A stretch of DNA of 64,000 nucleotides from Chitinophagales bacterium (GTDB lineage: Bacteria; Bacteroidota; Bacteroidia; Chitinophagales; CAIODY01), in NCBI GenBank assembly GCA_947449695.1, contig CANFST010000015.1, positions 1 to 64,000 of the forward strand, given 5' to 3'. The translations under genes were made by a program, and so were the position numbers. Shown here piece after piece: positions 23,245 to 41,478 of the stretch (position 1 is the stretch's first letter; the number at the start of each line of letters is the position of its first letter). Under the pieces are notes generated by a model. That model did no database searches. It was not told the DNA's origin and saw only the letters and a list, made by a program, of their open reading frames with translations.

Positions 23245-24276
23245 ATGATGACTATGTTTTTAACCCATGCTTTTATGAATAGTGCCAAAGCCCAAACGGC
23301 TGATAGCGCATTGGTAGTAACCGATAGTTCGGTAACTACCAGTAGCAATGTGGTAGTAACTGATAGCAGTGGCACCACCACTTTATTTGCAGGTGGGCAG
23401 CAAAGCAATTATAGCGGCATGGTGGGTGTAGGTACCAGTACCCCTGCTGTGAAGCTGCATGTGTATGATGATTATAAAGCCAACTTTCGCTTAAGCCAAC
23501 GGGTGAGCCACGATAGCACCCAAGCCACTGCCCGAAGCAGCAACCACCAACATACGGCACAAAGCATGATAAGCCATACGGGCTTAATACAAGGCAATGG
23601 GCAACATTTATTTGGGCAACAAATAATGGGTAATAACGGGCAACCGATTGATAATTTTGATATTTCGATATTGAGCGAACCTTTGGGAGGAACTTATGGA
23701 CGGCAAGGGGATGCAGTGCTTTCAACATTTGGTAACAATTATACAGGCATTTCTACTGTAAATGTTGCAGCATACACCATACCCAACCTTTCTACATTTT
23801 GCCCTCAATCAGCGGATGGAAGTATGCAATTTATGTCCGCCTCATTTGGCTGGCTCACTTATGAATTAGATGGCAGTGGTTGCCCTACACCTACGGCTGA
23901 TGTACAAATGGTGATGGATAATGCTGGCGATTTGCAATTGGTGAATGGTTCATTTACCGTGGGCAATGATATTTTTAAAGTGAACAAACACGATAGAATT
24001 ACTTATGCCCGTGAAATAAAAGTACAAGCTGCGCCTTTCCCTGCTGATTTTGTTTTTGAAAAGGAGTATAAAATGATGGGCTTACACGATTTAGAAAACT
24101 ATGTAAATGCCAACCACCACTTGCCCGAAATACCTTCGGCTGATGAACAAAAGAAAGACGGTGTGAATGTAGCCGATATGCAAAACAAACTACTGCAAAA
24201 AATTGAAGAACTAACTTTGATTGTGATTGAGCAAAACAAACGCATTGACGAGTTGGAAAAACAAGCCAAGCATTAA
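23245..24276 (+). CDS. Tail-fibre/endosialidase-chaperone-like secreted protein; true start may be upstream
   Basis: VGVGTSTPAVKLHVYDD motif; C-term LPEIPSADEQKKDGVNVADMQNKLLQKIEELTLIVIEQNKRIDELEKQ coiled coil; frame is open upstream to 23137. Confidence 0.7.
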   Translation: MMTMFLTHAFMNSAKAQTADSALVVTDSSVTTSSNVVVTDSSGTTTLFAGGQQSNYSGMVGVGTSTPAVKLHVYDDYKANFRLSQRVSHDSTQATARSSNHQHTAQSMISHTGLIQGNGQHLFGQQIMGNNGQPIDNFDISILSEPLGGTYGRQGDAVLSTFGNNYTGISTVNVAAYTIPNLSTFCPQSADGSMQFMSASFGWLTYELDGSGCPTPTADVQMVMDNAGDLQLVNGSFTVGNDIFKVNKHDRITYAREIKVQAAPFPADFVFEKEYKMMGLHDLENYVNANHHLPEIPSADEQKKDGVNVADMQNKLLQKIEELTLIVIEQNKRIDELEKQAKH

Positions 24277-24324: not shown

Positions 24325-25014
24325 ATGAAAAACAATATTCTTTTACTGCTTGCCTTGCTGCTTTTAGCCAGTTGCCAAAAGCAACCCACTGCTAATTTTA
24401 ATACAGATAAAACCTTGTATTATGCTGGCGAAACGGTACATCTAACCGATGCCAGCACCAATGCACACCATTGGTATTGGACTATGCCCGATGGCAGCGA
24501 AAAAACTGGGCAAAATGTAGATTATGTTATTGATACCAACGATTTAGGAGGTAATGAAACTTTTGCTTTAACAGTTACTTCAAAAAATGAAAAGAAATTA
24601 AACACTATTGCAAAACCAATTTTAATTTCTCAAAAAATATTTAATACCGATTATTATGCTTTTGATCAGACACAAAATCACATCATACCTTTAATAAAAT
24701 ATAGCTATTTTGAAAATGGAAATTGGGTTATAGTCGTTGATAGATTGATTATTACATTTTTGGGATTAACAAATAAACCAAGTGCAGGTACTTATCAAGC
24801 TCAGTCACAAGTGACAGTTGCTCCAATATATTACAGTACCAATGCTGATACTTTTGATAATATTGTATTCAGCACGGGGAGTATAACTGTAGCAAATTTT
24901 GCCAATGGCTTGATTCAATTTTCAATACAGAATGTGAATGGCTCACATTACTCGTTCAATTTTGGAGGTACACCTCAATCTGTAAGTTTAAATGGATTAA
25001 TTAATTGTTATTAA
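24325..25014 (+). CDS. PKD-domain-like lipoprotein
   Basis: Lipobox LLLLASC; NFNTDKTLYYAGETVHLTDASTNAHHWYWTMPDG. Confidence 0.65.
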   Translation: MKNNILLLLALLLLASCQKQPTANFNTDKTLYYAGETVHLTDASTNAHHWYWTMPDGSEKTGQNVDYVIDTNDLGGNETFALTVTSKNEKKLNTIAKPILISQKIFNTDYYAFDQTQNHIIPLIKYSYFENGNWVIVVDRLIITFLGLTNKPSAGTYQAQSQVTVAPIYYSTNADTFDNIVFSTGSITVANFANGLIQFSIQNVNGSHYSFNFGGTPQSVSLNGLINCY

Positions 25015-25025
25015 TACTTAAGTTT

Positions 25026-25325
25026 ATGAAAAAAATCATAATAACATTTTTTCTCATCATAATAACGTTAGCTATTCAAGCACAAGTTTATAATTCGAGC
25101 GCCTATATTTATAATGGGTATACCGATAAGCTATCTTATGAAACTGGTGATATTGTAACCTTTTATTTGTCAGGAAATTTACCACACCCATGGTATATTC
25201 CTTCATCATGGTGTTCTGCGCCTCGGTTCGTGTCCCCACGAACATCAATCATTTCGGTTAGTGGGGACACTAACCGAGGCAGGGGAACTAACCTTATACT
25301 TATTGCAGCAACAGAAAGATATTGA
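25026..25325 (+). pseudogene. Truncated exported protein; ORF runs into a 71-bp structured element
   Basis: MKKIIITFFLIIITLAIQAQVYNSSAYIYNG...PSSWC then reads through the repeat element. Confidence 0.65.
25214..25284. repeat. 71-bp structured dispersed element, copy 1
   Basis: TTCTGCGCCTCGGTTCGTGTCCCCACGAACATCAATCATTTCGGTTAGTGGGGACACTAACCGAGGCAGGG, identical to 25856-25926. Confidence 0.95.
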
Positions 25326-25362
25326 TGAATTGAAAGCACAGGTAGCTAATACTAAACACTAA
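25285..25362 (+). pseudogene. C-terminal remnant of a tail-fibre-like gene paralogous to 23245-24276
   Basis: Translates to ELTLYLLQQQKDIDELKAQVANTKH*, cf. ELTLIVIEQNKRIDELEKQAKH* of the intact gene. Confidence 0.8.
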
Positions 25363-25373
25363 TCCACTTCTTT

Positions 25374-25823
25374 ATGAAAAACTTTATTCTATTGCTTATT
25401 GTAATAATAGGTTTAGGTACTATTTTTTCTTGTAAAAATTCAGGATATAAAAAAGTAAGCGGTATAAGTGATTTTGATATTAAAACGCTTTGTATTGCAA
25501 ACAATATTGGCCAGTTAGTGATTAATGATATGGCTTCGTATAGGGCACTATATGGAAATCCTTATAATCTTCAACATTGTGATTCATTAGCCTATATTGA
25601 TTTTTCACAGCACACACTGCTTCTTAAATATACCGAATATACAGGATGTGATGTTAAATTTAGTCATAGTCTTTTGGTAAATGATAAAGACAAAGAATAT
25701 AGATTTATTATTGATATTTCCTCAAGTTCTTGTAGCTGGGGCTTGTTATCCTCAAGTTATAATTTTGTGCTAACACCCAAGTTAAATTCAAATTACCAAA
25801 TTAACTTTATTGTAAACAAATAA
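25374..25823 (+). CDS. Hypothetical lipoprotein
   Basis: Signal/lipobox MKNFILLLIVIIGLGTIFSC. Confidence 0.6.
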   Translation: MKNFILLLIVIIGLGTIFSCKNSGYKKVSGISDFDIKTLCIANNIGQLVINDMASYRALYGNPYNLQHCDSLAYIDFSQHTLLLKYTEYTGCDVKFSHSLLVNDKDKEYRFIIDISSSSCSWGLLSSSYNFVLTPKLNSNYQINFIVNK

Positions 25824-25827
25824 TAAA

Positions 25828-25857
25828 ATGAATAAATATTTATTAATTCTTTTTTTT
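25828..25857 (+). pseudogene. 5' stub of an exported-protein gene truncated at element copy 2
   Basis: ATG AAT AAA TAT TTA TTA ATT CTT TTT TTT then the repeat begins; MNKYLLILFF resembles the start of a signal peptide. Confidence 0.45.
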
Positions 25858-25926
25858 CTGCGCCTCGGTTCGTGTCCCCACGAACATCAATCATTTCGGT
25901 TAGTGGGGACACTAACCGAGGCAGGG
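25856..25926. repeat. 71-bp structured dispersed element, copy 2
   Basis: Identical to 25214-25284. Confidence 0.95.
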
Positions 25927-26010
25927 TGGTGAGATTGTCTTTAGCTCCCTCTCCTTCGGAAAGGGCAGGGGTGAGGTCAAAATAAGGGGTTTAAAGCGGA
26001 TAAGTATTGA

Positions 26011-26241
26011 AAATCAAACGGTTGTAAATTATAAACAAAAGTTTACAGCCTGTAACCAACTGGATATGGCTTGTAACCAGTTGGTTACAAATGATAACCA
26101 GACGGATAAGGTTTAAAACCATTTGGTTACAAAACAAAACCATTTGGATACGAACCATATCCAGTTGGTTATAAAGCAAAACCAAATGTTTACTAATTAT
26201 AACCAGTTGGTTATAATTGATAACCAGACGGATAAAATGAC
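26011..26241. repeat. Degenerate tandem array, 11 x 21 bp, consensus about TAACCAGTTGGTTACAAATGA
   Basis: Units begin every 21 bp (26011, 26032, 26053, 26074 ... 26221) with substitutions but no indels. Confidence 0.85.
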
Positions 26242-26292: not shown

Positions 26293-26895
26293 ATGAGCAC
26301 AAAAAAAGGATTTATTCCAAACCGCGATGGCGATGAAAAAACATGGGTAGTTAACCTCCGTACAGTAGCACCCAGTCAGGCAGCTACTTTGAGTATTTCG
26401 GTAGCCGATTTAGCTACCATCAACACCTCATGTAATGACATCGAAAACCAAATCAACCTGGCTATGCAGGCGCAGCAAGTAGCTAAGCAAGCCACTGCTA
26501 CTAAAAAAGCAAAGGTGAAAGTGGCTGAAACCAATTTAAGAGGCGTGATAAAACGCTTAAAAAGTAGTCCTAATTATACCGATGCTATTGGCAAATTATT
26601 AGGCATTGTAGGCGAAGACCATGTGGTGGATGAAGCTAACAGTGCACCCGAATTGAAATTGCACAAAGTGCCATCGGGCTGGCAAATAGATTTTAATTTG
26701 CAAGACCATTTTGATGGGGTGAATATTTATAAAAAACTCAGCACTGCGGCTGCGGCTACTTTTTTAGCCCGTGATACGGCATCGCCTTATATTGATACCA
26801 CTGCGGTTGATAATGGCACACAGTATTATGCTTATTATGTTATGCACGATGAAGAAGTAGGCTTGGTGAGCAATACAGCAGTAGTGAGTGTATAA
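26293..26895 (+). CDS. Hypothetical protein with C-terminal fibronectin III-like region
   Basis: 200-aa ORF; C-term GWQIDFNLQDHFDGVNIYKKL...SPYIDTTAVDNGTQYYAYYVMHDEEVGLVSNTAVVSV. Confidence 0.6.
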   Translation: MSTKKGFIPNRDGDEKTWVVNLRTVAPSQAATLSISVADLATINTSCNDIENQINLAMQAQQVAKQATATKKAKVKVAETNLRGVIKRLKSSPNYTDAIGKLLGIVGEDHVVDEANSAPELKLHKVPSGWQIDFNLQDHFDGVNIYKKLSTAAAATFLARDTASPYIDTTAVDNGTQYYAYYVMHDEEVGLVSNTAVVSV

Positions 26896-39834: not shown

Positions 39835-40917
39835 ATGAACAAAAAATACTTTTTAGCAGTAGTTATCTTTATAGTGGCTTCCAAATTATCAATGGCCCAA
39901 TGCGTTGCCTCATTTACAATAAGCAACGGAGCAAAAGACACAACGATCTTTAACTCAACATCTACGGGAACTAATTTGTTATATAATTGGAACTTTGGCG
40001 ACCATAATAGTTCAGACACATTAAGTAGTTTGAAAAAACCAAAACATTATTTTTCTGTAAAATGCAAGAAATATAATGTTTGCCTAACAATTACAGATCC
40101 AGTTAATTCGTGCATAAATACTTATTGTGATTCAGTTTATATCTCAACACCATCATTATCTGCCAATTTTAGTTATGTAATTAATGGTAGAAATGTAATT
40201 GCAACTAACGCATCGGGTGGTAGTTTTTCAAAAAGCTATTGGAATTGGGGTGATGGACATATTGACTCTGTTATTAATGCAAGCCATTTATATAGTTCAA
40301 CCTATGCAAAAGATTCTTTAACGCTTGCAGTAAAAAATATTTATGGTTGTGTTTCCTCTACAAAAAAATACTTTTATACTGGATGTAAAGATAGTTTTGC
40401 TTATGTTATGACTAACAATAGCACTATTGATTCTTTTACATTTACACCATGGAGTAATCAAACCATCTCACATTTTACTTGGACAATTAATGGTGGAAGT
40501 ATTTTAACTAATTCAAATCAAAATCCTTTAGTGGTTGCACTTACAGCGGCTGTGACTTATAATGTTTGTTTGAAAACTACTGACAACCATAATTGCATCA
40601 CTACATGGTGTAAAACGATTGATTTATCAACAGGAATTAGCAATATCGATTTTGTAGATAACTTCAATGTTTTCCCGAATCCTACCGGTGATAAAATTAA
40701 TATTAATTTTAATCTAAATAAATCAGATAAAATAGATTTTACAATTTACGATGTAACGGGAAAAAAATTATTTAATACATCAAGAGCTTATAATAATGAT
40801 GGATTGAAAGAAGAAATCATTGATCTATCTAAATATAATAGTGGCTTATATTTGTTAGAAATGAAAAATCAAACAAAGTCAATCATCTTCAAAAAGATTG
40901 TAGTTTCAAAAAACTAA
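39835..40917 (+). CDS. PKD-domain protein with T9SS type A sorting domain
   Basis: YNWNFGDHNSSDTLS PKD-like; C-term NFNVFPNPTGDKININF...SGLYLLEMKNQTKSIIFKKIVVSKN. Confidence 0.85.
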   Translation: MNKKYFLAVVIFIVASKLSMAQCVASFTISNGAKDTTIFNSTSTGTNLLYNWNFGDHNSSDTLSSLKKPKHYFSVKCKKYNVCLTITDPVNSCINTYCDSVYISTPSLSANFSYVINGRNVIATNASGGSFSKSYWNWGDGHIDSVINASHLYSSTYAKDSLTLAVKNIYGCVSSTKKYFYTGCKDSFAYVMTNNSTIDSFTFTPWSNQTISHFTWTINGGSILTNSNQNPLVVALTAAVTYNVCLKTTDNHNCITTWCKTIDLSTGISNIDFVDNFNVFPNPTGDKININFNLNKSDKIDFTIYDVTGKKLFNTSRAYNNDGLKEEIIDLSKYNSGLYLLEMKNQTKSIIFKKIVVSKN

Positions 40918-40942: not shown

Positions 40943-40984
40943 AACAGGGCGTATCGTTAAAAGATATGCCCTGTTTATTTTTTT
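40943..40984 (+). terminator. Rho-independent-like terminator/attenuator upstream of greA
   Basis: AACAGGGCGTATC ... GATATGCCCTGTT followed by a T-rich tract. Confidence 0.7.
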
Positions 40985-41007
40985 TAAAACATAACAAATT
41001 AATTTTA

Positions 41008-41478
41008 ATGGCTTATACATATTTAACTGCAGAAGGATTTGAGAATTTGAAAAAAGAAGTAAACGAATTAAAAACAAAAGGCAGAGCTGAAATGGCTCGG
41101 CAAATTGCAGAGGCAAGGGATAAAGGCGATTTGAGTGAAAATGCTGAATATGATGCTGCTAAAGAAGCTCAAGGTCATTTGGAAGCAAAAATTGCAAAAT
41201 TGGAAGCAATGCTTTCTGTTGCTCGTGTAATGGACGCCAGCACAATCGATATTTCGAAAGTGTCAGTAATGTGTAATGTGAAACTAAAAAATTTGAAAGA
41301 TAAAAAAACCATCAAATATCAATTGGTTAGTGAAAAAGAAGCAGATTTGAAAACTGGAAAAATATCTGTTAACTCCCCAATTGGCAAAGGTTTATTAGGT
41401 AAGCAGGTTGGTGAAGTGGCTGAAATCACTGTACCAGCAGGGCAATTAAAATTTGAGGTCTTGGAAATCAGTATTTGA
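41008..41478 (+). CDS. greA: Transcription elongation factor GreA
   Basis: MAYTYLTAEGFENLKKEVNELK...IAEARDKGDLSENAEYDAAKEAQGHLE; ATG 41008 preferred. Confidence 0.95.
   Translation: MAYTYLTAEGFENLKKEVNELKTKGRAEMARQIAEARDKGDLSENAEYDAAKEAQGHLEAKIAKLEAMLSVARVMDASTIDISKVSVMCNVKLKNLKDKKTIKYQLVSEKEADLKTGKISVNSPIGKGLLGKQVGEVAEITVPAGQLKFEVLEISI

Follow-up and report, generated by a model that had tools for sequence, protein, structure and literature searches.

Twin-hairpin elements in a Chitinophagales genome are heterodimeric REPINs, very probably served by a resident RAYT

Analyses of a 64,000-nucleotide stretch of Chitinophagales DNA (the window) and of related genomes indicated that two identical twin-hairpin elements in it are heterodimeric REPINs, each made of two inverted REP units with different stems. 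They very probably belong to a REP family served by a RAYT encoded on another contig (C11) of the same genome, a TnpA_REP of the HUH/Y1 type with the motifs of subclass 2.6, which corresponds to RAYT group 5. This assignment draws on sequence comparisons of five kinds: the anatomy of the units, their dispersal, the conserved flanking of RAYT genes by them, covariation of the units across RAYT relatives, and a stem position that tracks the RAYT tree. From these we infer that the RAYT recognizes, cleaves and transposes the twin; a REPIN-like working of the element is well supported. The element represents a type of mini mobile element that is already known, in a version little described so far.

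The twin elements of the window

The two 71-mers, at a spacing of 642 bp, proved to be 100% identical and to lie where an earlier note on this DNA had placed them. Both contain the two hairpins reported there, GTTCGTG-TCCC-CACGAAC (25226-25243 and 25868-25885) and GTTAGTG-GGGA-CACTAAC (25257-25274 and 25899-25916), and a search of the window for the hairpin pattern, allowing up to three mismatches, gave four matches, compared with zero in 100 shuffles. The features are as follows.

25214..25284, forward strand: twin element (REPIN-like), copy 1; 100% identical to copy 2, member of a genome-wide family
25219..25250, forward strand: left REP unit of copy 1; foot CGCC, stem TCGGTTCGTG / CACGAACATC, loop TCCC; covariance model R1, 35.9 bits, E 5e-9
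25250..25281, reverse strand: right REP unit of copy 1, inverted; foot TGCC, stem TCGGTTAGTG / CACTAACCGA with 10 pairs, loop TCCC; covariance model R1, 43.2 bits, E 2.1e-11
25856..25926, forward strand: twin element, copy 2; identical to copy 1
25861..25892, forward strand: left REP unit of copy 2; covariance model R1, 35.9 bits
25892..25923, reverse strand: right REP unit of copy 2, inverted; covariance model R1, 43.2 bits
25927..26235, forward strand: sequence 3' of copy 2, GGTGGTGAGATTGTCTTTAGC..., then a 21-bp minisatellite; largely common to the C26 and C47 copies and absent from copy 1

The covariance model was built from an alignment that included the twin family, and its finding of the four window units tests consistency and does not count as independent evidence. 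In the left unit of copy 1 the lower three stem pairs are broken.

The surroundings of the two copies are unlike each other. Copy 1 (window 25005-25373) lies at the junction of the N-terminal fragment of a small secreted-protein-like ORF, with a signal-peptide-like start, and a C-terminal coiled-coil-like sequence, ELTLYLLQQQKDIDELKAQV, that is similar to the terminal part of the 23245-24276 ORF; this site is possibly a rearrangement breakpoint. Copy 2 comes after the first codons of an ORF (MNKYLLILFFL...). The minisatellite that follows it (TAACCAGTTGGTTACAAA-like, with inverted versions too) occupies 26033-26235 and precedes an ORF at 26293, and the same minisatellite composite was found 3' of the twin copies at C26 and C47. 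The stretch 25927..26235 belongs to a composite repeat whose left edge is formed by the twin element.

Anatomy of the REP units

Comparison of the twin copies with the units found at RAYT genes showed that a REP unit consists of a 4-nt foot (mostly [CT]GCC), a 10-bp stem and a 4-nt loop. The apex is near-constant, GTG-TCNN-CAC: the GTG and CAC that enclose the loop do not vary, and the loop usually begins with TC. A twin is made of two such units, inverted, with different stems and a short conserved spacer. In a typical copy the left unit reads CGCC-GAGGTTCGTG-TCCC-CACGAACATC and the right unit, on the other strand, TGCC-TCGGTTAGTG-CCCT-CACTAACCGA. Assignment to the canonical GTAG/GTGG type of REP was rejected because no GT[AG]G tetranucleotide stands 5' of the foot, which is mostly GCC and otherwise CTA, TTA or CCC.

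The outer CCTCG/CGAGG stem described in the earlier note is present in the window copies and is peculiar to them and the C26 copy, where it results from a left foot of TCGG in place of the GAGG of the typical copy; of 25 copies, 18 lack its pair 12/72 and 20 lack its pair 13/71. The complementarity of the two tetraloops likewise holds in the window copies and is not a property of the family, as loop pair 25/59 fails in 15 of the 25. The loops vary independently among copies, which speaks against the kissing loops that had been suggested.

A second twin-hairpin family was observed in the same genome (C19:28035-28103, C19:28528-28596, C20:28780-28848 and C88:2955-3023). Its units, AGCC-ATCGTTGGTG-TTTGTT-CACCAACGAT and an inverted AGCC-GTTGTCGGTG-TTTGTT-CACCGACAAC, share the GCC foot and architecture of the first family and have a 6-nt loop; they flank neither of the two RAYTs found.

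Dispersal of the copies

The 71-mer gave 17 BLAST matches in this genome (G000). After removal of a self-complementary double match and two single hairpins these represent 14 twin-like places which, with one more found by pattern on C39, make about 15 twins, a low copy number for a REP family. Same-genus genomes gave 19 (G001) and four (G002) matches, and a genome of another genus in the same family held single hairpins. This search of the genome and its relatives, proposed in the earlier note, excluded a simple local duplication. Matches to the covariance model at E<=1 in six genomes of the family numbered 55, 38, 12, 6, 43 and 18. Across the order, the hairpin pattern GTTMGTGNNNNCACKAAC was found patchily in 27 of 199 genomes, with at most 17 sites per genome, and a reversed control pattern was almost absent. 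Among the genome contigs searched, two same-genus bins had the exact twin pattern. Mongoliibacter ruber gave one match, which consists of two separate units and is not a compact twin; the pattern was not found in viral contigs. At C47 (125-750 of the locus, several times), C36 and C76, a longer repeat, TTGGTTCAAGCCAAAAGAAAATAAAACAGCCTAAAATTATGGAG, was seen to have one GTTCGTG unit as its end.

Several twin copies lie just 3' of stop codons and some inside ORFs of this unannotated genome. The copies after stop codons at C11:13877 and C58:14178 are missing after the corresponding genes of the same-genus genomes, which indicates that presence varies within the genus. A search with joined flanks found no exact empty site, because the intergenic flanks had diverged, and no excision or insertion product was seen.

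Passive spread, in which the twin would be a relic carried by recombination, segmental duplication or gene conversion of composite repeats with no RAYT transposition, could account for the composite tail common to copy 2 and the C26 and C47 copies, for the identical pair 642 bp apart and for the position of copy 1 at a gene-fragment junction. The three copies with the common tail do move with a larger composite repeat, so some of the spread may be due to larger duplications. Most twin copies, however, have unrelated flanks on both sides, RAYT genes from several families of the order have the units beside them, and the units covary with the RAYT tree (see below). On these grounds we regard passive spread as an unlikely explanation of the family.

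The RAYT gene of this genome and its relatives

The earlier note had likened the elements to REP/BIME-type units linked to RAYTs, and this was borne out: they are dispersed REP doublets, and a RAYT gene is flanked by the same units both here and in relatives. The note's statement that no such gene is visible is correct for the window; in the genome, one was found on another contig (C11:40358-40906). A single unit lies on its 3' side (40311-40342) and a twin on its 5' side (40948-41018). The gene was found with a related RAYT protein, 55% identical, from another family of the order in which two RAYT genes stand inside arrays of GTTCGTG hairpins. A search with the PF01797 (Y1_Tnp) profile had identified a single RAYT, at C28, and missed the C11 RAYT, which scores below the Pfam cut-off.

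RAYT relatives flanked by these units were identified in four other genomes of the family (G001, G002, G004 and G005) and in other families of the order (G023, G080 and G102). At the 5' position there is a single unit in G001 and a twin in G000 and G002. A further genome, G003, has no close RAYT relative and only six covariance-model matches. Over the 199 genomes, presence of a close RAYT was associated with presence of the hairpins (Fisher p 4e-6, and 0.002 without this family), p-values that serve only as a guide since the genomes are related. Some genomes (e.g., G041 and G063) have many hairpins and only distant RAYTs.

The motifs of the C11 protein (NHIH, WQ and YMHQNP, with I changed to M relative to the YIHQNP of G001) fit, at the level of sequence, the NH[LIV]H, WQ and YIH[QN]NP given for TnpA_REP subclass 2.6, or RAYT group 5, in PMC6006769. 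The protein scored 75.9 bits (E 2.8e-21) against NF047646 (REP-associated tyrosine transposase), short of the curated cut-off of 80 bits, which the relatives in G004, G005 and G023 exceed. The sole match of its profile to a sequence of solved structure was TnpArep (4er8), and 4er8, in which a RAYT is complexed with a REP hairpin, was also the best fold match of its predicted model (moderate confidence, mean pLDDT 68).

The other RAYT of this genome (C28:15032-15631) would be the cognate transposase if the arrangement at C11 were coincidental, and a twin copy does lie 2.3 kb from it (C28:17918-17989). We consider this very improbable, as a different palindrome, AAGTTCGTCGAACTT, stands on both sides of the C28 gene and twin-family units flank the C11 RAYT and its relatives. 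In the flanks of the C28 gene (2730-3940 of the locus) the AAGTTCGTCGAACTT palindromes form arrays with a spacing of about 65 bp, and gene and palindromes make up a RAYT-REP pair of their own.

Two further arrangements were observed in relatives. The RAYT at G001:C134 (3798-4520 of the locus), whose motif is YIHQNP, is enclosed by long inverted repeats (CTGCTGGCGCAAGTC...GACTTGTGCC on one side, the inverse on the other) in a layout like the 'TIRYT' arrangement, and adjoins the end of a coiled-coil gene. In G148 (678-1450 of the locus) a tandem array of about 13 units, repeating every 57 bp and with the stem TCGGTTGGTG, lies upstream of a RAYT.

Folding and covariation

An 89-nt stretch folds far below shuffled energies (z -6.7 as RNA and -7.6 as ssDNA), and both folds named in the earlier note, two local hairpins or one long hairpin, were predicted. 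Across copies the local hairpins are paired in 90.0% of cells, versus 72.7% for the long duplex, and the typical copy has its energy minimum with both local hairpins formed. Maintenance of the local fold, as suggested there, describes the family; the window copies have drifted toward the long hairpin, which is their predicted minimum-energy fold, favored by about 7 kcal/mol with DNA parameters. The rewriting of the left foot from GAGG to TCGG in this subgroup is what favors the long hairpin.

The C-G versus A-T difference between the two arms had been read as compensatory change within the element. This was not upheld, and inside the twin family the outcome is one that the earlier note had named as refuting its idea: the twin-copy alignment has one doubly changed cell versus 1.2 in shuffles, and the fourth left-stem pair is broken in 8 of 25 copies, for example at C26 with GTTAGTG...CACGAAC. 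The covariation sought across copies is strong only between units that flank different RAYT relatives, where it sits in the lower stem. Among 37 units from RAYT flanks and the twin family, most of them chosen with at least 8 of 10 stem pairs, 73 cells were changed on both sides versus 21.9 in shuffles, and the covariation score was 0.505 versus 0.131, with every slid control far lower. With the loop core as the sole criterion, and hence no selection for pairing, 79 sites showed 89.3% pairing at the outer seven stem positions. At the stem position that sets the two arms apart, with C-G or A-T, other RAYT clades have G-C or T-A. This fourth pair from the loop tracks the RAYT tree, the label C requiring two changes versus 8.3 when shuffled (0 of 500 shuffles as low).

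The very stable RNA fold and the several copies just after stop codons would suit a selected RNA role, as a terminator, mRNA 3' stabilizer or attenuator, with the hairpins not mainly mobile DNA. Such a role is nevertheless improbable. No terminator-like site was found at either window copy, leaving the terminator role unsupported; no Rfam family passed its threshold, and we took the sub-threshold matches as chance; copies differ at corresponding gene ends of same-genus genomes; and compensatory change is absent inside the twin family.

Based on the reading as a RAYT-served REPIN, each unit would fold when the element is single-stranded, as on the lagging strand, and the RAYT would cleave with its tyrosine, after which the doublet would be moved or copied to new sites. 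Of the two folds proposed for REPINs, the long hairpin has been suggested to be the less mobile one (PMC3116915). By that hypothesis the window copies, as a subgroup whose left foot went from GAGG to TCGG, may have come to favor the less mobile fold.

Comparison with known systems

The features of a REPIN were found together here: inverted units with a short spacer, a hairpin fold, dispersal and a RAYT flanked by the same units. In these respects the twins resemble the REPINs of Pseudomonas fluorescens SBW25 (PMC3116915), which are dispersed inverted REP pairs able to form a long hairpin or two hairpins ('clover'), with the same units flanking the RAYT. They differ in the [CT]GCC foot in place of GTAG/GTGG, in arms with different stems and in the few copies (about 15). 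The best-described REPIN/RAYT systems are those of proteobacteria, with hairpins that have a GTAG foot; the present family is clearly linked to a RAYT and has a different foot. Its natural stem variants follow the RAYT tree, which makes a RAYT-hairpin recognition code testable. We tentatively suggest a class of REPs with a code unlike that of GTAG REPs, in which a [CT]GCC foot and a constant GTG-TCNN-CAC apex would be combined with a lower stem that drifts with the RAYT, and which would move as fixed heterodimers of two stem types; the second twin family, with its GCC foot and 6-nt loop, would share this plan without flanking a RAYT.

The REP dimers, heterodimers and BIMEs of the GTAG families (PMC3733652) share with the twins the inverted arrangement, the occurrence of heterodimers, conserved spacers and the presence of some copies inside ORFs; the twins lack a GTAG or CGTC tag. 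Atypical REP-like structures at TnpA_REP subclass 2.6 (RAYT group 5) of Bacteroidetes, as described in PMC6006769, are similar in the motifs of the enzyme (NHIH, WQ and Y[IM]HQNP), in having no GT[AG]G foot and in having copies elsewhere in the genome. They are credited there with weaker secondary structure, whereas the stems here are perfect over 10 bp. With IS200/IS605 the system shares the HUH/Y1 fold of the enzyme and the possession of subterminal hairpins that have a foot on their 5' side. A multi-copy IS200/IS605 unit, with the gene between hairpins, was rejected as a description: this genome has one C11-type RAYT gene, which does not spread as a unit, and many hairpins that have spread without it.
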